Positions 24,290-34,663 of a stretch of DNA of 64,000 nucleotides are shown one piece after another. Made by a program: the position numbers and the translations under genes. Location of the stretch: assembly GCA_012837965.1 (NCBI GenBank), contig DUQF01000008.1:1-64000 (forward strand), read 5' to 3'. Position 1 is the first letter of the stretch, and each line of letters starts with the position of its first letter. This stretch comes from Clostridiales bacterium (lineage in GTDB: Bacteria > Bacillota > Clostridia > Christensenellales > Aristaeellaceae). The notes beneath the pieces are model-generated. The model did no database searches. It saw only the letters and a program-made list of their open reading frames with translations, and was not told where the DNA came from.

Positions 24290-24318
24290 ATTGTAAAAAG
24301 ACAATGCGTATTTGTCAA
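24290..24318 (-). promoter_or_regulatory. lysC promoter
   Basis: On the minus strand a perfect TTGACA and a TACAAT are 17 nt apart, about 36 nt before the lysC start. Confidence 0.85.
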
Positions 24319-24324
24319 CGAAAC

Positions 24325-24354
24325 TTGACGATGCCTTGTAATCATTTGTATAAT
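24325..24354 (+). promoter_or_regulatory. Promoter of the hydrogenase sensory operon
   Basis: TTGACG and a perfect TATAAT are separated by 18 nt. The -10 covers an upstream in-frame ATG at 24353, which rules that ATG out as the translation start of the DRTGG gene. It is back to back with the lysC promoter; only 6 nt separate the two -35 elements. Confidence 0.85.
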
Positions 24355-24388
24355 GAATCCGATCATCAATCTGGAGGTCTTATCAATA

Positions 24389-24763
24389 ATGATGACAATT
24401 GAACAGATTATCACAGCTTTGGATGCCCGTGTATTACGTGGGCATGACAAATTGGATCAAAATATATATTGCGCTTGCTGCTCCGATCTGATGAGCGATG
24501 TTTTGGCTTTTGTTAATAACGAAAAGACAGCTCTACTAACCGGACTTACCAACATACAGGTTGTACGTACTGCAGAAATGCTGGATTTGAAGTGTTTGAT
24601 TTTTGCAAGGGGCAAGGTACCGGATGAACAAGTACTTGATGCCGCCGACGAACTGGGTTTAGTGGTGTTGACTGCGCCAAGAACTATGTTCACCTGTGCC
24701 GGCATCCTATTTGAGGGTGGCGTAAGAGGAGCTTCCCTGCCGTGGCCGGGGCTTGAATCATGA
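24389..24763 (+). CDS. DRTGG-domain protein (hydrogenase-locus accessory 1)
   Basis: This 124-aa protein is a stand-alone DRTGG domain of the type found next to [FeFe]-hydrogenase genes in Clostridia. An N-terminal segment, DQNIYCACCSDLMSDVLAFV, is followed by strands with TGLTNIQVVRTAEML and LVVLTAPRTMFTCAGILFE. The DRTGG fold occurs in regulatory parts of phosphotransacetylases; its ligand is not known. I chose the ATG at 24389, with GGAGG 11 nt upstream and a promoter excluding longer forms. It overlaps the next gene by four bases (ATGA). Confidence 0.75.
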   Translation: MMTIEQIITALDARVLRGHDKLDQNIYCACCSDLMSDVLAFVNNEKTALLTGLTNIQVVRTAEMLDLKCLIFARGKVPDEQVLDAADELGLVVLTAPRTMFTCAGILFEGGVRGASLPWPGLES

Positions 24764-25176
24764 TTCAAGCGAAGTACACCGTCGTGCGAGGAGATTATGC
24801 AAGGGCAGGCGAGGCTTCGGCGGATATTAAGCGTACCTTGAAACAGTTGGGAGTTGATTCAAGTACCCTTAGAAGAATTGCTGTTGCCAGCTATGAATCT
24901 GAGCTAAACATGGTCATCCATTCTTTAGGAGGCACACTCACTTTAGTGATTGATAACGACCGTGTAAAGCTTACTTCAAATGATTTAGGGCCGGGTATTT
25001 TCGATGTAAATGAAGCGATGCAGGAAGGGTATTCAACCGCTGACGATATCGCAAGAAATTACGGGTTTGGGGCAGGGATGGGTTTACCCAATATGCGCCG
25101 CAACGCCGATAAGTTTGCTATTTATAGCATGGTACCAGACGGTACAACCATTGAGATGGAATTTAACATCGGATGA
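24760..25176 (+). CDS. RsbW-like HATPase anti-sigma/serine kinase-type protein
   Basis: This 138-aa protein is a single GHKL ATPase domain. The N-box is SYESELNMVIHS (about residues 46-57), the G1 box is NDLGPGI (about 77-83), and the G2 box is GFGAGMGLPNMRR (about 104-116). It lacks a phospho-acceptor domain and so resembles anti-sigma-factor kinases (RsbW/SpoIIAB type). In hydrogenase loci such proteins are conserved, but their target is unknown. It overlaps the DRTGG gene by four bases and is 9 nt from the Fe-S protein gene. Confidence 0.8.
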   Translation: MIQAKYTVVRGDYARAGEASADIKRTLKQLGVDSSTLRRIAVASYESELNMVIHSLGGTLTLVIDNDRVKLTSNDLGPGIFDVNEAMQEGYSTADDIARNYGFGAGMGLPNMRRNADKFAIYSMVPDGTTIEMEFNIG

Positions 25177-25185
25177 GGTGAAATA

Positions 25186-26499
25186 ATGGATGGAAGGATT
25201 CACTCGGTAACCTTAGATAAGGAACGCTGTACGGGCTGCTCTAATTGTTTGATGCGCTGTCCAACGGAAGCTATCAGAGTGCGTCGGGGTAGGGCGCATA
25301 TTATTGATGAGCGTTGCATAGACTGCGGTGAATGTATCCGGGTTTGTTCAAATCATGCAAAGATTGCTTTGACCGAACCTTTGTCTTCCGTTTTTGCCTA
25401 TCGGCACCGTATCGCTCTTCCCGCCCCTGCCCTTTATGGACAATATCGCAACCTGCCCTCTATTAGTTTAGTCATTGAAGGGCTTATTCGCTTGGGCTTT
25501 AGCGATGTGGTGGAGGTTGCTTTGGGGGCGGATATTGTAACCCGTGCAATTAAAGAAAAATTAAAAGAAAAAGGTTTACCAAAACCGATGATTTCTTCCG
25601 CATGCCCGACCATTACCCGCCTGATTCAGCTTAGATTTCCCGATTTGATTGAGCATATTATTGACGTGAGGCAGCCCATGGAAGTAGCCGCTTCCTTGGC
25701 TCGCAAACAATACGCGCAGAAGCATAGCGTTTCTGAAGATGAAATAGGTATTTTCTTTATCAGTCCCTGCGCGGCAAAGGCGACGGCCATTCATAATCCG
25801 CTTGGACATTCTTTGTCACAGGTTAACGGTATCATTGCTATAAGAGATATCTACGGCCCATTGCTTCAGGCAATGGATGGTCTCAAAGTTGGTGAAAAAG
25901 AAACCAGGGCGACACGCTATGGTATCGGTTGGGCCAAAAGCGGTGGCGAAGCAAAGGCCGTCGGTTCTATCAAGCGTTTGGCTGTTGACGGCATGGAAGA
26001 CGTAATCAGCGTACTGGAGGAAATTGAGAACGGACGGCTGCGAGACATTGAATTTTTTGAGGGGGCAGCCTGCCGTGGAGGCTGTGTGGGAGGGCCTTTA
26101 ACCTTTGAAAATAAATTTATCGCGCGAAATACGGTGAAATGCTTGGGAGAGAAACTGCCCGTTACCCATCCGGATGAGGTGATTCACCTGGAGCAGCTGC
26201 CGCCCATACCCTTACATTTTGAAGAGGATCTAAAGCCCAATGACAGTCTGAAGCTGCATCCAAGCATCAGCGGTGCCATAGAACGGATGGAAAGAATGCA
26301 GGAAATTCTATCCATCTTACCAGGCTATGACTGCGGATCCTGCGGCTCGCCCACATGCCGAAGCTTTGCAGAGGACATTGTCAGGGGTTATTGTACCCAG
26401 AACGACTGTATTTTCCTCCTGCGGGATCGCTTAAAGGTTATGGCGCAAGAAATGATTGATATATCACAAACGAAACGGGAGCATTCAAATGACAATTGA
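25186..26499 (+). CDS. Sensory-type [FeFe]-hydrogenase-like iron-sulfur protein
   Basis: This 437-aa protein has two N-terminal [4Fe-4S] ferredoxin motifs (CTGCSNCLMRCP and CIDCGECIRVC), then an H-cluster-type domain, then a C-terminal Fe-S motif (CGSCGSPTCRSFAEDI, about residues 381-396). The H-cluster motifs are altered: TSCCP reads SSACP (about 138), MPCxxK reads SPCAAK (about 193), and the third reads AACRGGCVGGP without GGG. Alanine at the first of the paired cysteines is known from sensory (HydS-type) hydrogenases. There is no PAS domain or phosphatase fused to it, unlike HsfB. It probably senses H2 or redox state and signals through the flanking HATPase or DRTGG proteins (inference). 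Confidence 0.78.
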   Translation: MDGRIHSVTLDKERCTGCSNCLMRCPTEAIRVRRGRAHIIDERCIDCGECIRVCSNHAKIALTEPLSSVFAYRHRIALPAPALYGQYRNLPSISLVIEGLIRLGFSDVVEVALGADIVTRAIKEKLKEKGLPKPMISSACPTITRLIQLRFPDLIEHIIDVRQPMEVAASLARKQYAQKHSVSEDEIGIFFISPCAAKATAIHNPLGHSLSQVNGIIAIRDIYGPLLQAMDGLKVGEKETRATRYGIGWAKSGGEAKAVGSIKRLAVDGMEDVISVLEEIENGRLRDIEFFEGAACRGGCVGGPLTFENKFIARNTVKCLGEKLPVTHPDEVIHLEQLPPIPLHFEEDLKPNDSLKLHPSISGAIERMERMQEILSILPGYDCGSCGSPTCRSFAEDIVRGYCTQNDCIFLLRDRLKVMAQEMIDISQTKREHSNDN

Positions 26500-26830
26500 A
26501 CACTTATGCACGTTGATTGAGGGAAAACCCTTAACCACCTTGGACACGGACCGTACCGTTGTCAGCGGGTATACCTGCGACCTACTTTCTTGGGTGATGG
26601 CAAAGGGTAGTCCTGATGCGGCATGGATTACCGTGCAAACCCATATGAATGTGGTTGCCGTTGCGGCTTTACACGACATGGCTTGCATTATTTTACCCGA
26701 AAACATCACCATGGAAGGCGCGCCTTTAGAGAAGGCAGAGGAGGAAGGGATAGCCGTGCTTACTTCGCCCAAAAGCGCTTATGAAATTTGCGGGATAATG
26801 ATGTGTGAGGGTATTCCCGCTTCTGAGTAA
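26489..26830 (+). CDS. DRTGG-domain protein (hydrogenase-locus accessory 2)
   Basis: This 113-aa protein is a second small DRTGG-type protein, related in layout to the one at 24389 (VSGYTCDLLSWVMAKG, then AWITVQTHMNVVAVAALHDM, then IAVLTSPKSAYEICGIM). I chose the ATG at 26489; it overlaps the preceding stop by 11 nt and has GGGAG upstream. Tandem DRTGG proteins flanking the sensory Fe-S protein suggest that they act as a pair. The function is unknown. Confidence 0.72.
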   Translation: MTIEHLCTLIEGKPLTTLDTDRTVVSGYTCDLLSWVMAKGSPDAAWITVQTHMNVVAVAALHDMACIILPENITMEGAPLEKAEEEGIAVLTSPKSAYEICGIMMCEGIPASE

Positions 26831-26833
26831 CTC

Positions 26834-27511
26834 ATGAATCTCTATTATGATTTACACATACATTCTTGTTTGTCGCCTTGTGCTGACGAACTTATGACCC
26901 CTAAAAATATATGCTCCATGGCTTCATTAAAGGGGCTTGATTTAATTGCCTTGACTGACCATAATAGCGCGGGTAATGTGCGCATAGCCGAGAAGGCCGC
27001 AATGGAGGAAGGTATCCTTTTCTTGCCGGGCATTGAAATATGCACGCAGGAAGAGGTACATTTGCTTGCTTATTTTGATAGCTGCGATGCTTGTGAGGAA
27101 ATGGGCGCATATTGTTACGAATATCTGCCGCATATTCAAAACAAGCCGGATTTTTTTGGGGAACAGGTGTACATTGGTGAAAATAATTTGCCTTGTCGAT
27201 ATGAAGAAAGGTTGCTAATCAGTGCGCTTACTCTCTCGCTTGAGGAAGTTGTGCAAAAGGTTCGTTCACTTGGAGGCGTAGCTGTACCGGCGCATATCTA
27301 TCGTGGAAACGGTATTATGACGATGCTTGGATTTATTCCGCCCCAAATAGGCTTTACAGTAGTCGAAATCAAAGCGGGCGAAATTCCGCCCGCGGGACTA
27401 CGATCGATTACTTCCAGCGATGCGCATGAGCTGGGCGCAATAGCTGAACGGAAATATAAACTAAATGCAACTAACACAAGGGAAGAAGTTTTAGCTTATC
27501 TCTCGTATTAA
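26834..27511 (+). CDS. PHP-domain metal-dependent phosphoesterase
   Basis: This 225-aa protein is a stand-alone PHP domain with the metal-binding motifs DLHIHS (residues 6-11), LTDHN (about 40), PGIEICT (about 65), HLLAYF (about 76), PAHIYR (about 154) and SDAHELG (about 193). Such proteins hydrolyse phosphoester bonds; related enzymes act on 3',5'-nucleoside bisphosphates or nucleotides. This subtype is often found in [FeFe]-hydrogenase loci, where its role is unknown. It is the last gene of the first hydrogenase-linked unit; a strong terminator follows. Confidence 0.82.
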   Translation: MNLYYDLHIHSCLSPCADELMTPKNICSMASLKGLDLIALTDHNSAGNVRIAEKAAMEEGILFLPGIEICTQEEVHLLAYFDSCDACEEMGAYCYEYLPHIQNKPDFFGEQVYIGENNLPCRYEERLLISALTLSLEEVVQKVRSLGGVAVPAHIYRGNGIMTMLGFIPPQIGFTVVEIKAGEIPPAGLRSITSSDAHELGAIAERKYKLNATNTREEVLAYLSY

Positions 27512-27567
27512 TGGGACACAATTTGCCCTGTTAACCAGTTTGCGTCCTGATGTTGTGCAAACAGCAC

Positions 27568-27623
27568 AAAAACCATGTGAAATTTTCTACCTTGTTCAAG
27601 GATGAAAATTTCACATGGTTTTT
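27568..27623 (+). terminator. Strong terminator between the sensory and hydBCA units
   Basis: A 20-bp stem (AAAAACCATGTGAAATTTTC paired with its complement at 27604-27623) contains an inner CCTTG/CAAGG hairpin. It is followed by TATTTTTTT. It separates the PHP gene from hydC; the stretch between it and hydC holds only a possible weak promoter (GATAAAAT near 27641). Confidence 0.9.
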
Positions 27624-27681
27624 ATTTTTTTGTTCAATATGATAAAATAAGCCGCATTGATTCTAAAGGAGGTTTTTTAAT

Positions 27682-28155
27682 TTGGCAACCAAGGATCAGG
27701 AAAAGTATTTGGAGTTGGAAAAAATTATTGAGGAGCACAAAGGACTGCCGGGGGCTCTGATGCCTGCCATGCAAAAAACGCAGGAACTGTTTGGCTGTGT
27801 GCCCCTTAAAGCACAACAAATGTTGGCCGACGGTCTTAACGCTACCCTGTCGGAGGTATACGGCATAGCCACCTTCTACTCGCAGTTTAATCTTGAACCT
27901 AAAGGTGAATATGTTATCAGTGTTTGTCTTGGCACTGCTTGTTATGTAAAAGGCGCTCAAGACATACTGGACAGGATTTGCGAAGAAATAGAAACCATGC
28001 CCGGAAAAACCAGTGCTGACGGACGGTTTACAGTCGAAGCGACTCGCTGCATTGGCGCTTGCGGTTTAGCTCCTGTTATGACCATTAATGAGGAAGTGCA
28101 CGGTCGAATTATGCCCGATGATGTACCGAGCATTCTTGCGAAGTATAAAAAATAA
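27682..28155 (+). CDS. hydC: HydC, NuoE-like [2Fe-2S] subunit of bifurcating hydrogenase
   Basis: This 157-aa protein is a NuoE/24-kDa-type thioredoxin-fold subunit. It binds one [2Fe-2S] cluster with cysteines in VCLGTACYVKG (about residues 81-91) and RCIGACGLAP (about 117-126). In HydABC it passes electrons between NADH-linked flavin and the hydrogenase subunit. The start is TTG at 27682, with AAGGAGG about 9 nt upstream. It overlaps the next gene by one base. Confidence 0.92.
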   Translation: MATKDQEKYLELEKIIEEHKGLPGALMPAMQKTQELFGCVPLKAQQMLADGLNATLSEVYGIATFYSQFNLEPKGEYVISVCLGTACYVKGAQDILDRICEEIETMPGKTSADGRFTVEATRCIGACGLAPVMTINEEVHGRIMPDDVPSILAKYKK

Positions 28156-28706
28156 TGCGTGACCTTTCACTGCACTTGCTCGATTTGGCGCAAAACAGCA
28201 TTTCAGCAGGCGCGAAGCACATCTCGATGAAATTGTCCTTGTATGAAAACGATGAATTACATTTTTTTATCAAGGACGATGGTGACGGGATGGATTCAAC
28301 TCTTGTAAAAGAAGTCCTTAGCCCTTTTGTCACCTCTCGTACTACACGCAAGGTTGGTATGGGCATTCCTTTGATAAAAGAGAGCGCCGAAAGCACAGGC
28401 GGCACCTTTAAACTGAACAGCACGCTTCAAAAAGGTACGGATTTGTTTGCAGTATTAAATACAAAACATATTGATTGTATTCCCATTGGCGATATAGCGG
28501 AGTCCTTTGTAAGCCTTATCTGCGCCAATCCGCAAACACCCGAGTTCACCTTAGCGCTTGAATCGCCTTTGGGCAGTGAAACTTATCAGACGGAAGAACT
28601 AAAACGAATGCTGGACGGTGTTGAGCTAACTGAGCCGGAAGTAATTGAATGGCTGCGCCGCTCCATTGATGAAAAGACAAGGGCACTATTTGGAGGAAAA
28701 GTGTAA
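28155..28706 (+). CDS. HATPase-domain protein of the hydrogenase operon
   Basis: This 183-aa protein has an N-terminal GHKL ATPase domain (LDLAQNSISAGAKHIS as N-box, DDGDGM as G1 box near residue 43, GMGIPLIKESAESTGG as G2 region near residue 73). The C-terminal about 80 residues are unlike a kinase phospho-acceptor domain. Homologous genes lie between hydC and hydB in many Clostridia and Thermotogota, with no known biochemical role. One-base overlaps with both neighbours (TAATG) show tight coupling. Confidence 0.82.
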   Translation: MRDLSLHLLDLAQNSISAGAKHISMKLSLYENDELHFFIKDDGDGMDSTLVKEVLSPFVTSRTTRKVGMGIPLIKESAESTGGTFKLNSTLQKGTDLFAVLNTKHIDCIPIGDIAESFVSLICANPQTPEFTLALESPLGSETYQTEELKRMLDGVELTEPEVIEWLRRSIDEKTRALFGGKV

Positions 28707-29086
28707 TGTTAACCAAAGAACAGTTAGAAGTCATTAGGCAACGAACCTTGGAGCGCATACAAATGCGTAAGGAAGATGAAAACCAAGCAGTTCGTGTGGT
28801 TGTGGGCATGGCTACCTGCGGCATTGCGGCTGGAGCACGTCCCATTATGCGGGCCTTTATGGATGAATGCAATCTTCGTAACTTGACCCACGTTCAAATA
28901 ACGCAGACGGGATGTGTCGGGATGTGCCGGTACGAACCCATGGCGGATGTTATTTTTCCCGGTAAAGATCCCGTCACCTATGTACAGTTGACGCCCGAAA
29001 AGGTGCGTCGCATTGTCGCTGAACATGTTGTCAACGGGCAACCGGTCAAAGAATTTACCATCGGTGCCGTTCTAAATAACCAATAA
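28706..29086 (+). CDS. Thioredoxin-like [2Fe-2S] ferredoxin of the hydrogenase operon
   Basis: This 126-aa protein has a charged N-terminal helix followed by a thioredoxin-like [2Fe-2S] domain, with cysteines in MATCGIAAGA (about residue 36) and QTGCVGMCRYEPM (about 69-81). It resembles the N-terminal ferredoxin domain of HydB and small electron-transfer proteins seen in multi-subunit hydrogenases. It probably serves as an extra electron-transfer or assembly subunit. Confidence 0.85.
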   Translation: MLTKEQLEVIRQRTLERIQMRKEDENQAVRVVVGMATCGIAAGARPIMRAFMDECNLRNLTHVQITQTGCVGMCRYEPMADVIFPGKDPVTYVQLTPEKVRRIVAEHVVNGQPVKEFTIGAVLNNQ

Positions 29087-29103: not shown

Positions 29104-30897
29104 ATGGAAATTTATCGCTCACACGTATTAGTTTGCGGCGGTACAGGCTGTACTTCATCGGGATCATCGAAAATCATCGAAACGATGGAGCAAATGCTTG
29201 TTGAAAAGGAACTGGAAAGGGAAATCAAGGTTATCAGAACGGGCTGTTTTGGCTTGTGTGAAGCCGGTCCTATTGTTATTGTATATCCTGAAGGTACTTT
29301 TTATTCCCATGTCAAGGTGGAAGATGTTGGCGAGATTGTCGAAGAACACCTGTTAAAGGGTCGTATCGTCCGTCGCCTTGTTTATAAGGGCGCATTAACT
29401 GATGAAAGCGCACAAGTGCCGCTGAAAGATATTCCTTTTTACCAACACCAACACAGGATTGCGCTACGTAACTGCGGTGTAATTGACCCGGAGAATATTG
29501 ACGAGGCAATTGCAACGGACGCCTATCAGGCGCTAGCGAAGTGCGTAACCGAAATGACTCCTGAAGAAGTCATCGAAGTTATTTCTCAATCAGGCCTTCG
29601 TGGGCGTGGAGGCGGCGGTTTCTCTACTGGCATCAAGTGGAAGTTTGCCGCTTCCAGCAAGTCGGATAAAAAATATGTTATCTGTAACGCGGATGAGGGC
29701 GACCCCGGTGCCTTTATGGACCGTTCTATTTTAGAGGGTGACCCACACACTGTACTTGAAGCTATGGCCATTTGTGGCTACTGCATTGGTTCGGATGAGG
29801 GCTATGTTTATGTACGTGCCGAATATCCCATTGCTGTAGAACGCCTTGAAAAAGCGATTAGCCAGGCAAGGGCATATGGACTACTTGGAGACAACATTTT
29901 AGGTACGGATTTTAGCTTTAATATTCATGTGCGTTTAGGTGCCGGCGCCTTTGTATGCGGTGAAGAAACCGCACTCATGGCATCTATTGAAGGCCACCGT
30001 GGTGAACCTAAACCCAGACCTCCTTTTCCGGCTGTTCGTGGCTTGTTTGATAAGCCCACCAACATTAACAATGTGGAAACTTACGCAAATATTCCGCCCA
30101 TTATTCTAAATGGTGTAGATTGGTTCCGGTCACTTGGCACAGAAAAATCTTCCGGAACCAAGGTGTTTGCTTTGGGCGGTAAGATTAACAACACCGGGCT
30201 TGTTGAAGTCGAGATGGGAACGCCCCTGCGAACAGTTATTTATGATATCGGCGGTGGCATTCCCAAGGGCAAACAACTTAAGGCCGTACAGACAGGCGGA
30301 CCATCCGGTGGCTGTATACCTGTAGATCTTTTGGACGTACCGATCGAATATGATTCCCTCATCGAACTTGGCTCCATGATGGGGTCAGGCGGCATGATTG
30401 TTATGGATGAAGACAACTGCATGGTGGATATTGCCCGTTTCTTCTTGGATTTCACCGTTGAAGAAAGTTGTGGAAAATGCACGCCCTGTCGCATCGGTAC
30501 CCGTAGGATGCTGGAGATTTTAGACCGTATTGTCGAGGGGAAGGGCAAAGAAGATGACATCGAAAAGTTGGAACGATTAGCTCGTGTGATTAAAGAAACT
30601 TCTCTTTGCGGGCTTGGGCAGACTGCCCCTAATCCTGTTTTATCGACTCTGCATTATTTTAGGGACGAGTACGAGGCCCATATTTATGACCGGACTTGCC
30701 CTGCGCATCATTGCAGGTCGCTGACCAAGTTGCAAATCACTGATGATTGCCGTGGTTGTACCGCCTGTGCCCGTGTTTGTCCCGTGGACGCTATTTCCGG
30801 CGAAGTTCGGCAAAAGCACGTTATCGATATGGATAAGTGTACCAAGTGCTACTCTTGCATTGAAAAGTGTCGCTTTGACGCCATCATCAAGGTTTAA
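29104..30897 (+). CDS. hydB: HydB, NuoF-like NADH-binding flavoprotein subunit
   Basis: This 597-aa protein has an N-terminal thioredoxin-like [2Fe-2S] domain (CGGTGCTSSG and RTGCFGLCEAGP, residues 1-100) and a central NuoF domain. That domain has the FMN/NADH site GLRGRGGGGFSTGIKW (about 167-182) and EGDPGAF-type ADEGDPGAFMDRS, followed by the [4Fe-4S] ligands SCGKCTPCRIGTRRM (about 455-469). The C-terminus adds two ferredoxin clusters (CRGCTACARVCP and CTKCYSCIEKC). The flavin is the expected bifurcation site coupling NADH and ferredoxin oxidation to H2 evolution. AGGAGGGAAC precedes the start. Confidence 0.95.
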   Translation: MEIYRSHVLVCGGTGCTSSGSSKIIETMEQMLVEKELEREIKVIRTGCFGLCEAGPIVIVYPEGTFYSHVKVEDVGEIVEEHLLKGRIVRRLVYKGALTDESAQVPLKDIPFYQHQHRIALRNCGVIDPENIDEAIATDAYQALAKCVTEMTPEEVIEVISQSGLRGRGGGGFSTGIKWKFAASSKSDKKYVICNADEGDPGAFMDRSILEGDPHTVLEAMAICGYCIGSDEGYVYVRAEYPIAVERLEKAISQARAYGLLGDNILGTDFSFNIHVRLGAGAFVCGEETALMASIEGHRGEPKPRPPFPAVRGLFDKPTNINNVETYANIPPIILNGVDWFRSLGTEKSSGTKVFALGGKINNTGLVEVEMGTPLRTVIYDIGGGIPKGKQLKAVQTGGPSGGCIPVDLLDVPIEYDSLIELGSMMGSGGMIVMDEDNCMVDIARFFLDFTVEESCGKCTPCRIGTRRMLEILDRIVEGKGKEDDIEKLERLARVIKETSLCGLGQTAPNPVLSTLHYFRDEYEAHIYDRTCPAHHCRSLTKLQITDDCRGCTACARVCPVDAISGEVRQKHVIDMDKCTKCYSCIEKCRFDAIIKV

Positions 30898-30909
30898 GGA
30901 GGAAATACG

Positions 30910-32667
30910 ATGGAAAAGAAAATGATTTCGCTTACGATTGACGGCGTTCATGTGGAGGTTCCTGAGGGAACAACCATACTTGAAGCGGCACGAAAAGCGC
31001 ATGTTCATATTCCAACTCTCTGCTTTTTAAAGGATGTTAATGAAATTGGCGCCTGTCGCATTTGTGTGGTGGACGCTGGTGCCAGGGCTTTACAAGCTGC
31101 ATGTGTGCTTGAGGTTGCGCCGGGCATGGTGGTTAGAACCAATACGCCCGAAGTGCGTGAAGCACGTAAAACCATCATTGAATTAATTTTAAGCAATCAT
31201 GATAAAAAATGCCTATCTTGTGTTCGTAGTCAGAATTGTGAGTTGCAGAAAATCTCTTTAGATCTTGGCATTGAAAATGGCGATGAATTTGCCGGAACAA
31301 TGAGAATATATTCTGTTGACGATTTATCTGTAAGCCTTGTCAGGGACAATAATAAGTGTATTAACTGTCGCCGTTGTGTTGCGACTTGTAACAAAAATCA
31401 AGGTGTAGGCGTAATTGGCGCAGTGAACCGTGGTTTCAACACTTCAATTGAATCTGCTTGGGATCAGTCGCTGGCGCAGACTGCCTGTATCGGTTGTGGT
31501 CAATGCATCGTCAACTGTCCTGTAGGTGCCCTGTATGAGAAGGATGAACTACAAGACGTTTGGACAATGATTGACGATCCGGATTTACATGTGGTTGTGC
31601 AGCCTGCGCCTTCTGTGCGCGCTGCGCTTGGTGAATGTTTTGGCTTGCCCATGGGCACTAATGTGACTGGAAAAATGGTTGCCGCCATGCGCAGGCTTGG
31701 ATTTGACAAGATTTTTGATACCGATTTTGCTGCTGATCTAACCATCATGGAAGAAGCGACCGAACTGCTTGATCGTATACAGTCCAGGGGTACTTTACCC
31801 ATGATTACTTCCTGTTCTCCCGGTTGGGTACGTTTTTGTGAAACCTACTATCAGGATTTTATTCCCAATCTGTCAAGCTGCAAGTCGCCTCATCAAATGC
31901 TTGGCGCAATCACTAAGAGTTATTATGCTGAAAAGGCTAGCATTCCGGCTGAAAAAATCCGCGTTGTATCCGTGATGCCCTGTACGGCCAAGAAACTTGA
32001 AACAAGGTCACCGGGCATGGATTCTACTGGATATCCGGACGTAGACGCGGTCATCACCACCAGAGAGCTTGGCAAGATGATTAAGTCCAGCGGTATCGAC
32101 TTTGTGAACCTGCCCGATGAAGAGTTTGACCCCATTCTCGGCCTTAGCACGGGTGCCGGCACAATTTTTGGTGCTACCGGAGGCGTGATGGAAGCTGCTC
32201 TGCGCACGGCCTATGAAACTGTTCTCAACAAAGAACTTGAAAAGCTGGATTTCCACGTTGTTCGTGGCATTCAAGGAATTAAAGAAGCCACTATTGCTTT
32301 GGGCGATGTTGAGCTTAATGTAGCGGTAGTCAACGGCACAGCCAATGCCGCCAAATTGCTGGATGCCATTCGTAAGGGTGAAAAAACTTATCATTTTATT
32401 GAGATTATGGCTTGCCCTGGCGGCTGTGTGAACGGCGGAGGCCAACCAATTGTTTCCGCGCAGGATCGCCTGAATCTTGATCCACGTATAGAGAGGGCCA
32501 AGGCACTCTATAAGGCGGACGATGAGATGATCTACCGTAAGAGCCATGAAAACCCAATGATTAAGAAACTATACGATGAATATTTGGAAAAACCCAACAG
32601 CCACCGTGCGCATCACCTGTTACACCGCCACTACGTGAAACGTCCCAAATATCAGAATCAAAACTGA
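30910..32667 (+). CDS. hydA: HydA, catalytic [FeFe]-hydrogenase subunit
   Basis: This 585-aa protein starts with a plant-type [2Fe-2S] domain (CGACRICVVDAG-like near residues 45-60), then the His/Cys-coordinated cluster (CLSCVRSQNCELQ), then two [4Fe-4S] motifs (CINCRRCVATCN and CIGCGQCIVNCP). The H-cluster domain follows: TSCSPGW (Cys 302), MPCTAKKLE (Cys 358) and IMACPGGCVNGGGQP (Cys 502 and 506). The first motif has Ser where monomeric enzymes have a second Cys; I recall this form from multi-subunit HydA proteins. The small C-terminal domain ends in a His/Tyr-rich tail. The maturases HydE, HydF and HydG are not in the window. Confidence 0.95.
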   Translation: MEKKMISLTIDGVHVEVPEGTTILEAARKAHVHIPTLCFLKDVNEIGACRICVVDAGARALQAACVLEVAPGMVVRTNTPEVREARKTIIELILSNHDKKCLSCVRSQNCELQKISLDLGIENGDEFAGTMRIYSVDDLSVSLVRDNNKCINCRRCVATCNKNQGVGVIGAVNRGFNTSIESAWDQSLAQTACIGCGQCIVNCPVGALYEKDELQDVWTMIDDPDLHVVVQPAPSVRAALGECFGLPMGTNVTGKMVAAMRRLGFDKIFDTDFAADLTIMEEATELLDRIQSRGTLPMITSCSPGWVRFCETYYQDFIPNLSSCKSPHQMLGAITKSYYAEKASIPAEKIRVVSVMPCTAKKLETRSPGMDSTGYPDVDAVITTRELGKMIKSSGIDFVNLPDEEFDPILGLSTGAGTIFGATGGVMEAALRTAYETVLNKELEKLDFHVVRGIQGIKEATIALGDVELNVAVVNGTANAAKLLDAIRKGEKTYHFIEIMACPGGCVNGGGQPIVSAQDRLNLDPRIERAKALYKADDEMIYRKSHENPMIKKLYDEYLEKPNSHRAHHLLHRHYVKRPKYQNQN

Positions 32668-33632: not shown

Positions 33633-33768
33633 CAAACTATTATTCGGTCTAAATGATTGACGGGAAGAATACAGACCGTTTATCCGCTCATTTCAACCAC
33701 TTATCCAAAAACAGTGGAAATCAAGTCCAAATTATTCTATATTGCAACCAAGAAAGGAGGAGAACAGA

Positions 33769-34209
33769 GTGCAGGTTGAAATCAAAATTGATGCCAATTG
33801 CAAAGAAACAAAAATTATCATTGTTTCAGACAAAATGACGGAAGAAATCAACCAACTGATTAAGAAGTTGTCGGAAGGTGCACCACAAATCATTGCCGGG
33901 GTCAAAGATGATAGCTTGGAAATCTTAAATCCCAAAGACATTTTTCGGTTTTACGCGGCAGACAAAAAAGTATTCGCTTCAACTGAGAAGGGAGAATACG
34001 CCTTGCGATTGCGGCTGTACGAATTGGAAGAAAGGCTGGACGCAAATGACTTTGTACGTATCTCAAATTCGGAGATTATTAACATTCATAAGGTCAAGAG
34101 TTTTGATTTAAGCTTCACCGGAACGATTTGCGTTGCCTTCACGGACGGAACCATTACCTATGTATCACGGCGATACGTCAAAAAAATCAAACAAATATTA
34201 GGAGTATGA
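33769..34209 (+). CDS. LytTR-domain DNA-binding regulator
   Basis: This 146-aa protein has a short N-terminal region (residues 1-45) and a C-terminal LytTR DNA-binding domain (about 50-146). The domain shows IFRFYAADKKVFAST, YELEERLDANDFVRISNSEI, INIHKVKSF and the final TYVSRRYVKKIKQILG, all typical of this family. There is no receiver domain. I start at GTG 33769 because AAAGGAGG lies 8 nt upstream. It is paired with the DUF3021 membrane protein gene 10 nt downstream, a common two-gene regulatory unit in Firmicutes. Confidence 0.88.
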   Translation: MQVEIKIDANCKETKIIIVSDKMTEEINQLIKKLSEGAPQIIAGVKDDSLEILNPKDIFRFYAADKKVFASTEKGEYALRLRLYELEERLDANDFVRISNSEIINIHKVKSFDLSFTGTICVAFTDGTITYVSRRYVKKIKQILGV

Positions 34210-34219
34210 GGTGAATTAA

Positions 34220-34663
34220 ATGAAAAAGAAAGTGATTTCAAGGGCACTCTTGGGTTTCCCTGTGGGTATTTTAATAGGCTATGTGATTACAATATTAATT
34301 TCTCTTCTATTTGCAAAAGGTCACTACTCGCCCTGTGTCCCTGAATTAGTCGAAGCGATGGGAAATGAGATTCATGCGGTAATCTTGCAGGCGGTTTTAA
34401 GTGGCTTATTAGGCTCTGCCTTTTCAGCAAGCTCTATCATCTGGGAGATGGAAAACTGGAGCATTGCCAAGCAAACAGGCATATATTTTGTGGTTACTGC
34501 CCTTGTAATGATGCCGGTAGCCTATGCATTAAACTGGATGGAGCATAGCTTTACCGGATTTGTAAAGTACTTTGGTATTTTTATTATCATCTTTATCATC
34601 ATATGGTTTATTCAATACATGTTTTGGAAAAAGAAAATCGAACAAATCAACTCAAAACTGTAA
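34220..34663 (+). CDS. DUF3021 membrane protein, partner of LytTR regulator
   Basis: This 147-aa protein has four predicted transmembrane helices (ALLGFPVGILIGYVITILIS, then VLSGLLGSAFSASSI, IYFVVTALVMMPVAYAL, YFGIFIIIFIIIWFIQYMFW) and a basic C-terminus. It matches the DUF3021 family, which is encoded next to LytTR regulators and is thought to restrain or sense for them. GAGGTGA precedes the start. Confidence 0.85.
   Translation: MKKKVISRALLGFPVGILIGYVITILISLLFAKGHYSPCVPELVEAMGNEIHAVILQAVLSGLLGSAFSASSIIWEMENWSIAKQTGIYFVVTALVMMPVAYALNWMEHSFTGFVKYFGIFIIIFIIIWFIQYMFWKKKIEQINSKL

Follow-up and report, generated by a model that had tools for sequence, protein, structure and literature searches.

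An apparently undescribed, widely conserved gene set around a putative group D sensory [FeFe] hydrogenase: a possible ATP-dependent redox relay

Biophysical studies of group D sensory hydrogenases date from 2020 onward. The only characterized member of this group (M2e) is TamHydS of Thermoanaerobacter mathranii (PMC8163306). Work cited in PMC13104023 reports that its secondary structure shifts with H2, and the same 2026 paper weakened the leading idea about the signal, which centers on the C-terminal cluster and its redox state (PMC13104023). The sensory-type group C systems, hfsABCD of Thermoanaerobacterium and HydS of Ruminococcus albus, show regulatory effects on hydrogenase, adhE, and the yield of ethanol, and when hfsB is lost, both the expression of adhE and the ethanol yield change (PMC5707799). 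They differ from the system described here in having a PAS domain and, in the T. saccharolyticum hfs operon, the serine phosphatase-like HfsC (PMC11837493), and no DRTGG-GHKL-PHP set has been reported for them. Here, we analyzed a gene unit in a 64,000-nucleotide stretch of DNA from a Clostridiales bacterium, a gut-type anaerobe (contig DUQF01000008.1; hereafter, the window). In this unit, a gene for a putatively sensory hydrogenase, HydS, lies among genes for two small DRTGG proteins (DRTGG1 and DRTGG2), a SpoIIAB-like GHKL ATPase (HATP1), and a PHP phosphoesterase (PHP), and a second GHKL ATPase (HATP2) is encoded among the adjoining hydABC genes. The relay around group D HydS appears to be real, widely conserved, and apparently undescribed: we found no description of a DRTGG and hydrogenase set in the open-licence papers searched, in agreement with the view of the first-pass annotation, made from the sequence of the window, that the pathway has not been worked out. 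Of these papers, a single one mentions DRTGG as well as hydrogenase, and its subject is unrelated to the set.

The source HydS consists of two N-terminal [4Fe-4S] motifs, a Fe_hyd_lg_C H-domain, and a C-terminal FeS domain. It retains the H-cluster ligands (C140, C195, C296, and C300), and a motif alignment showed replacements of the proton-path C299 (A139 here), M353 (S193), and M497 (A294). Pfam scans matched the C-terminal FeS domain (PF04060) in 18 of 18 diverse HydS relatives and gave no PAS match in the source protein or in any of these 18, which also share the paired N-terminal motifs and the H-domain with its cluster cysteines. The pairs D382-C383 and D407-C408, together with Lys59, match residues conserved in group D (PMC13104023). 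Judged from domain order and these residue features, HydS fits the group D (M2e) type, and its earlier description as a sensory-type hydrogenase-like protein holds in this putative sense; the protein does not fit group C, as it has no PAS domain. TamHydS shares the domain order, the lack of PAS, the C-terminal [4Fe-4S] domain with Asp-Cys pairs, the loss of C299, the change of M353 to Ser, and a flanking HATPase gene (PMC8163306, PMC13104023), whereas M497 is Leu there and Ala in the source HydS, and its partner set is undescribed. The second gene flanking TamHydS was reported as an AraC regulator (PMC8163306). The gene directly 3' of hydS in Thermoanaerobacter wiegelii (L165:11306-11641) encodes a DRTGG2 of 111 amino acids (aa) with no helix-turn-helix match and weak PucR-N similarity, and the AraC label beside TamHydS (Land et al.) therefore probably denotes DRTGG2, to judge from this relative.

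All genes of the region lie on the forward strand, in the order DRTGG1, HATP1, HydS, DRTGG2, and PHP (24392-27511), followed by hydC, HATP2, a [2Fe-2S] protein gene, hydB, and hydA. The source genome (G000; 2.03 Mb, 97.6% complete) contains only two [FeFe] hydrogenase-type genes, HydS and HydA. The HydS profile of the phylum covered 398 genomes, and the neighborhoods comprised 100 of up to 19.5 kb, the 80 best from a named-genome collection, and 20 contexts of partners that occur separately from HydS. Among 131 nonredundant HydS loci with sufficient flank, HATP1 was present in 129 (98%), DRTGG1 in 116, PHP in 112, DRTGG2 in 110, and HATP2 in 101, and the five-gene unit was complete in 100. Scores for HydS, HATP1, and PHP were each sharply bimodal across the 398 genomes. 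HydS co-occurred with HATP1 in 159 of 160 HydS genomes (phi 0.93) and with PHP in 149 genomes (phi 0.90), as raw counts spanning many families. The genes clearly do not vary independently across genomes, which bears out the proposal of a conserved gene set, and beyond the phylum the unit was found in Coprothermobacter platensis (L186). Thermoanaerobacterium butyriciformans (L174) has the full unit. Conservation in Thermotogota, claimed at the same time, was not borne out: no Thermotogota locus was among the best 80 of the named-genome scan, and the HydS of T. maritima has a PAS domain (PMC10055695), which makes it a group C type.

The relation of the unit to the bifurcating hydrogenase is close but one-sided. 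hydABC adjoins in about 70% of HydS loci, and 74 of the 100 complete units have HydA nearby, with no HydA within 9.5 kb of the other 26. HydA of the A6 type was present in 286 of 398 genomes; it accompanied HydS in 149 of 160 genomes, compared with about 137 of the 238 genomes that lack HydS (an overlap tallied by hand). Thus, the unit nearly implies HydABC, and the reverse does not hold. These counts bear on an assembly or repair function, in which the GHKL ATPases, DRTGG proteins, and PHP would aid the assembly or maturation of HydABC and HydS and have no signaling role. The frequent adjacency, the location of HATP2 and a ferredoxin gene inside hydCBA, and the MutL-like fold of HATP2 would suit such a function, but the many HydS-less genomes with an A6-type HydA, the 26 complete units standing apart from HydA, and the CBS-carrying units without HydS (below) all speak against it, and we consider it improbable. 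The tie to HydABC drawn in the first-pass annotation is sound insofar as the two adjoin in most loci, but it is loosened by these 26 units, by the HydS-less CBS versions, and by the Rex neighbors of other units.

Several genomes fuse neighboring members of the unit. DRTGG1 is joined to HATP1 in Tepidanaerobacter (L194) and in ten loci of the neighbor count, HydS to DRTGG2 in L051 and L062, PHP to HATP2 in L100, L097, and L127, and HATP2 to a ferredoxin in L041; long HATP1 open reading frames in L136, L190, and L201 were rejected as fusions, since their upstream part is in the wrong frame. Some genomes keep the unit in two parts at separate places, HATP1-HydS and DRTGG1-DRTGG2-PHP-HATP2, and four loci (L035, L038, L050, and L167) have a minimal HATP1-HydS pair that adjoins a second HydS-like protein of 636-637 aa. 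HATP2 stays behind PHP even where hydC is located elsewhere, and because of this and its fusion to PHP we count it as a member of the unit. The original five-gene boundary, although it enclosed genes that are indeed conserved together, was thus too narrow. Neutral clustering, by which the genes would be co-transcribed yet functionally unrelated, has the compactness of the genomes in its favor and nothing more; four kinds of fusion, split units in the same genome, and near-perfect co-occurrence contradict it, the fusions by themselves being telling, and we give it almost no credence.

HATP1 matches SpoIIAB structures (E about 1e-4), with the catalytic Glu46 and Asn50 and both ATP boxes (DxGxG and GFGAGxG) invariant, and it is the only HATPase_c_2 protein over cut-off in the source genome. 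It did not reach the NCBI SpoIIAB equivalog cut-off (47.6 vs. 135 bits). The unit resembles SpoIIAB/RsbW systems in the HATP1 fold, the catalytic Glu/Asn, the short soluble partners, and a hydrolase as a possible reset. It differs in the partners themselves: the source genome yielded no STAS protein (PF01740) and no SpoIIE phosphatase over cut-off (one partial match fell below it), and DRTGG and PHP stand in their places. The customary kind of substrate of HATP1 is therefore missing, and classical STAS/PP2C partner switching was excluded for this genome.

DRTGG1 scored 28.1 bits against PF07085 (cut-off 25.2); DRTGG2 scored 16.3 bits, below the cut-off, and its Thermoanaerobacter orthologue reached 29.1 bits, above it. 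In each of the two families, the serine of a D-L-[LM]-S motif was invariant in 75 of 75 sequences. In AF_1212, the sole solved free-standing relative that aligns there, this serine is not conserved, whereas a later Thr-Gly is. Since DRTGG1 and HATP1 can be fused, the serine is invariant, and the customary substrate is missing, the simplest reading is that HATP1 acts on DRTGG. DRTGG also accompanies CBS domains as metabolic-state regulatory domains in CBS-DRTGG pyrophosphatases and SpxR (PMC11172384, PMC9888711); the DRTGG of the unit differ in that they stand alone or are joined to HydS or a GHKL ATPase, and in their D-L-x-S motif.

Some units lack HydS and instead have an N-terminal CBS pair on HATP1 (L211-L214 and L220, Pfam-confirmed in L213); in L078 and L115, the CBS pair occurs together with HydS. 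The CBS pair suggests an adenine-nucleotide input in place of H2, and the unit would then accept two or more interchangeable inputs, HydS among them. Taken with the Rex genes found upstream and the complete units without hydA, the CBS units indicate that the module is a redox or energy relay with exchangeable sensors. In L223 and L224 (L224:8952-14336), HATP1, with DRTGG1 in L224, is followed by genes for a RseC-like protein, Rex, a multihaem cytochrome, and NfnAB-like proteins, with no HydS; this arrangement is the same core in another redox context.

The gene set, its conservation and fusions, and the intact catalytic residues point to an ATP-dependent redox relay with HydS as its input in the source organism, a reading whose chemistry and output we infer and which we hold tentatively, with slightly more doubt than confidence. 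HydS, presumably a poor catalyst that keeps an H-cluster, would register H2 or the redox state of ferredoxin. The change would be passed to HATP1, which accompanies HydS almost everywhere, and to DRTGG2, which some genomes fuse to HydS. HATP1 would act on DRTGG1 and perhaps DRTGG2; phosphorylation of the invariant, unit-specific serine is the most likely means, and DRTGG would thus stand where partner switching has its STAS proteins. PHP, partnered by HATP2, would reset the system by hydrolyzing the phosphoester made. As output, HydABC and further redox genes would be adjusted, by way of a dedicated Rex copy beside the unit in many relatives, and in other lineages the CBS pair on HATP1 would replace HydS at the head of a general redox and energy relay core. 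A bolder version, in which this is a new kind of relay across anaerobic Bacillota, with a SpoIIAB-type kinase that phosphorylates DRTGG rather than STAS, PHP in place of PP2C, and an exchangeable sensor (HydS or CBS) that tunes hydrogenase and redox genes, strikes us as rather doubtful.

PHP retains all expected metal ligands among its near-invariant residues (H8, H10, C16, H43, E68, H76, H154, D196, and H198), and its structural model is confident (predicted local distance difference test score 95.9). The closest structural kin of the model are Endonuclease Q (Z 20.3), TM0559 (17.0), RNase AM (16.3), and an AMP-bound phosphoesterase (15.7), far ahead of the tyrosine phosphatases Cps4B/YwqE and histidinol phosphatases (Z 7-8 only); by family models, PHP is closest to 3',5'-nucleoside bisphosphatase, below the cut-off of that family. 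The hydrolysis of a phosphoester signal by PHP is possible, and the modeled fold points no less to a nucleotide-type phosphoester than to a phosphoprotein. Such kinship suits a nucleotide messenger, a more specific form of the phosphoester signal in the first-pass annotation. The DRTGG and CBS proteins would bind this nucleotide, and the unit would control its level, with PHP hydrolyzing it and HydS gating the cycle. The pairing of DRTGG with CBS in adenine-nucleotide-regulated pyrophosphatases (PMC11172384) and in SpxR (PMC9888711) agrees with it, as do the CBS-HATP1 fusions; however, the unit contains no synthase, the literature examined holds no demonstrated DRTGG ligand, and a fold does not give a substrate. 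We regard this messenger as unlikely.

Rex lies directly upstream of the unit in 19 loci from at least seven families (L052, L053, L055, L058, L061, L077, L081, L082, L094, L194, L056, L065, L151, L213, L214, L215, L217, L218, and L228), with no intervening gene, often with a 4-nucleotide (nt) overlap, and with or without HydS. Its identity was Pfam-confirmed in L215 and L224 and assigned by clustering in the others. Several genomes with a unit-adjacent Rex have a second Rex elsewhere, and one copy may serve the unit specifically. The overlaps and the paired copies could mean that the sole job of the unit is to modulate Rex, but most units have no adjoining Rex, and none was detected in the source genome or in the HydS genomes G318, G022, G118, and G157, which leaves this account very unlikely. 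Rex is a frequent partner that is not required, and as a general output it was rejected for the source organism.

Several observations weigh against the redox relay as we propose it. The co-occurrence counts are not corrected for phylogeny, and experimental data exist for HydS alone among the proteins of the unit. A protein-phosphatase role of PHP is doubtful, because its fold is nearer to nucleic-acid and nucleotide enzymes (Z 16-20 vs. 7-8). In structure comparisons, HATP2 resembles MutL (its best match, Z 13.2) rather than sensor kinases, with MutL and gyrase B as its kin at Z 11-13. The invariant DRTGG serine can instead be a structural or ligand site. Finally, no Rex gene was detected in the source genome, as in about 10% of the sample, and Rex boxes are not enriched (5 matches with at most three mismatches vs. 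7.4 expected).

The layout at the locus agrees with the first-pass annotation, which had described five tightly packed genes under one promoter, closed by a strong terminator, and a second HATPase within the hydCBA unit (Table 1). Adjacent genes overlap by 4 and 11 nt or are separated by 9 and 3 nt. The promoter call rests mainly on position, because promoter-like sites as a class were only slightly commoner than in shuffled sequence (29 vs. 22.9). Back to back with it is a divergent promoter, also 11/12, on the reverse strand (24290-24318), facing an aspartokinase gene. We placed the DRTGG1 start at 24389/24392, preceded by GGAGG, and not at the mechanically listed 24353, because the latter falls within the -10 box. 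The terminator hairpin (-36.2 kcal/mol, z = -6.9, equaled by 0 of 200 shuffles) has a long loop and was overlooked by a simple terminator scan. HATP2 lies between hydC and the [2Fe-2S] gene. Beyond hydA, positions 33742-34663 contain an apparent LytTR-type regulator gene and, after it, a gene for a small membrane protein; the LytTR-type gene is a possible candidate for a local regulator in this Rex-less genome.

Table 1. Features of the sensory unit and the adjoining hydrogenase genes in the window
Feature	Position	Strand	Basis and remarks
Promoter of the unit, sigma-70-type, TTGACG-18-TATAAT	24325-24354	+	Consensus scan 11/12; 35-38 nt 5' of DRTGG1 start
DRTGG1, 123 aa	24392-24763	+	PF07085 over cut-off; Ser35 in D-L-x-S motif invariant, unit-specific
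HATP1, SpoIIAB-like GHKL ATPase/kinase, 138 aa	24760-25176	+	PF13581 over cut-off
HydS, PAS-less putatively sensory-type [FeFe] hydrogenase with group D/M2e features, 437 aa	25186-26499	+	Pfam domains
DRTGG2, 113 aa	26489-26830	+	Weak PF07085, orthologue over cut-off; Asp31, Ser34, Thr48, Asn54 invariant
PHP metal-dependent phosphoesterase, 225 aa	26834-27511	+	PF02811 over cut-off
Intrinsic terminator, long A+T-rich hairpin then T run	about 27568-27632	+	Fold
hydC (NuoE-like), TTG start	27682-28155	+	PF01257
HATP2, GHKL ATPase traveling with the sensor unit	28155-28706	+	PF02518
Small [2Fe-2S] thioredoxin-like ferredoxin	28706-29086	+	Slightly below PF01257 cut-off
hydB (NuoF-like flavoprotein subunit)	29104-30897	+	PF01512, PF10589
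hydA, group A6 bifurcating-type [FeFe] hydrogenase	30910-32667	+	NF040763, 895 bits vs. cut-off 765

For group D sensory hydrogenases, the unit supplies candidates for the physical partners through which the signal leaves HydS: HATP1, which accompanies HydS at 98% of its loci, both DRTGG proteins, PHP, and HATP2. The CBS sensors and Rex neighbors indicate that the module extends beyond the control of hydrogenase. If the proposed relay is true, it would explain how H2 production is matched to H2 pressure in many anaerobes of the gut and of hot habitats, and it would bear on rumen fermentation and on the ethanol yield of engineered thermophiles.

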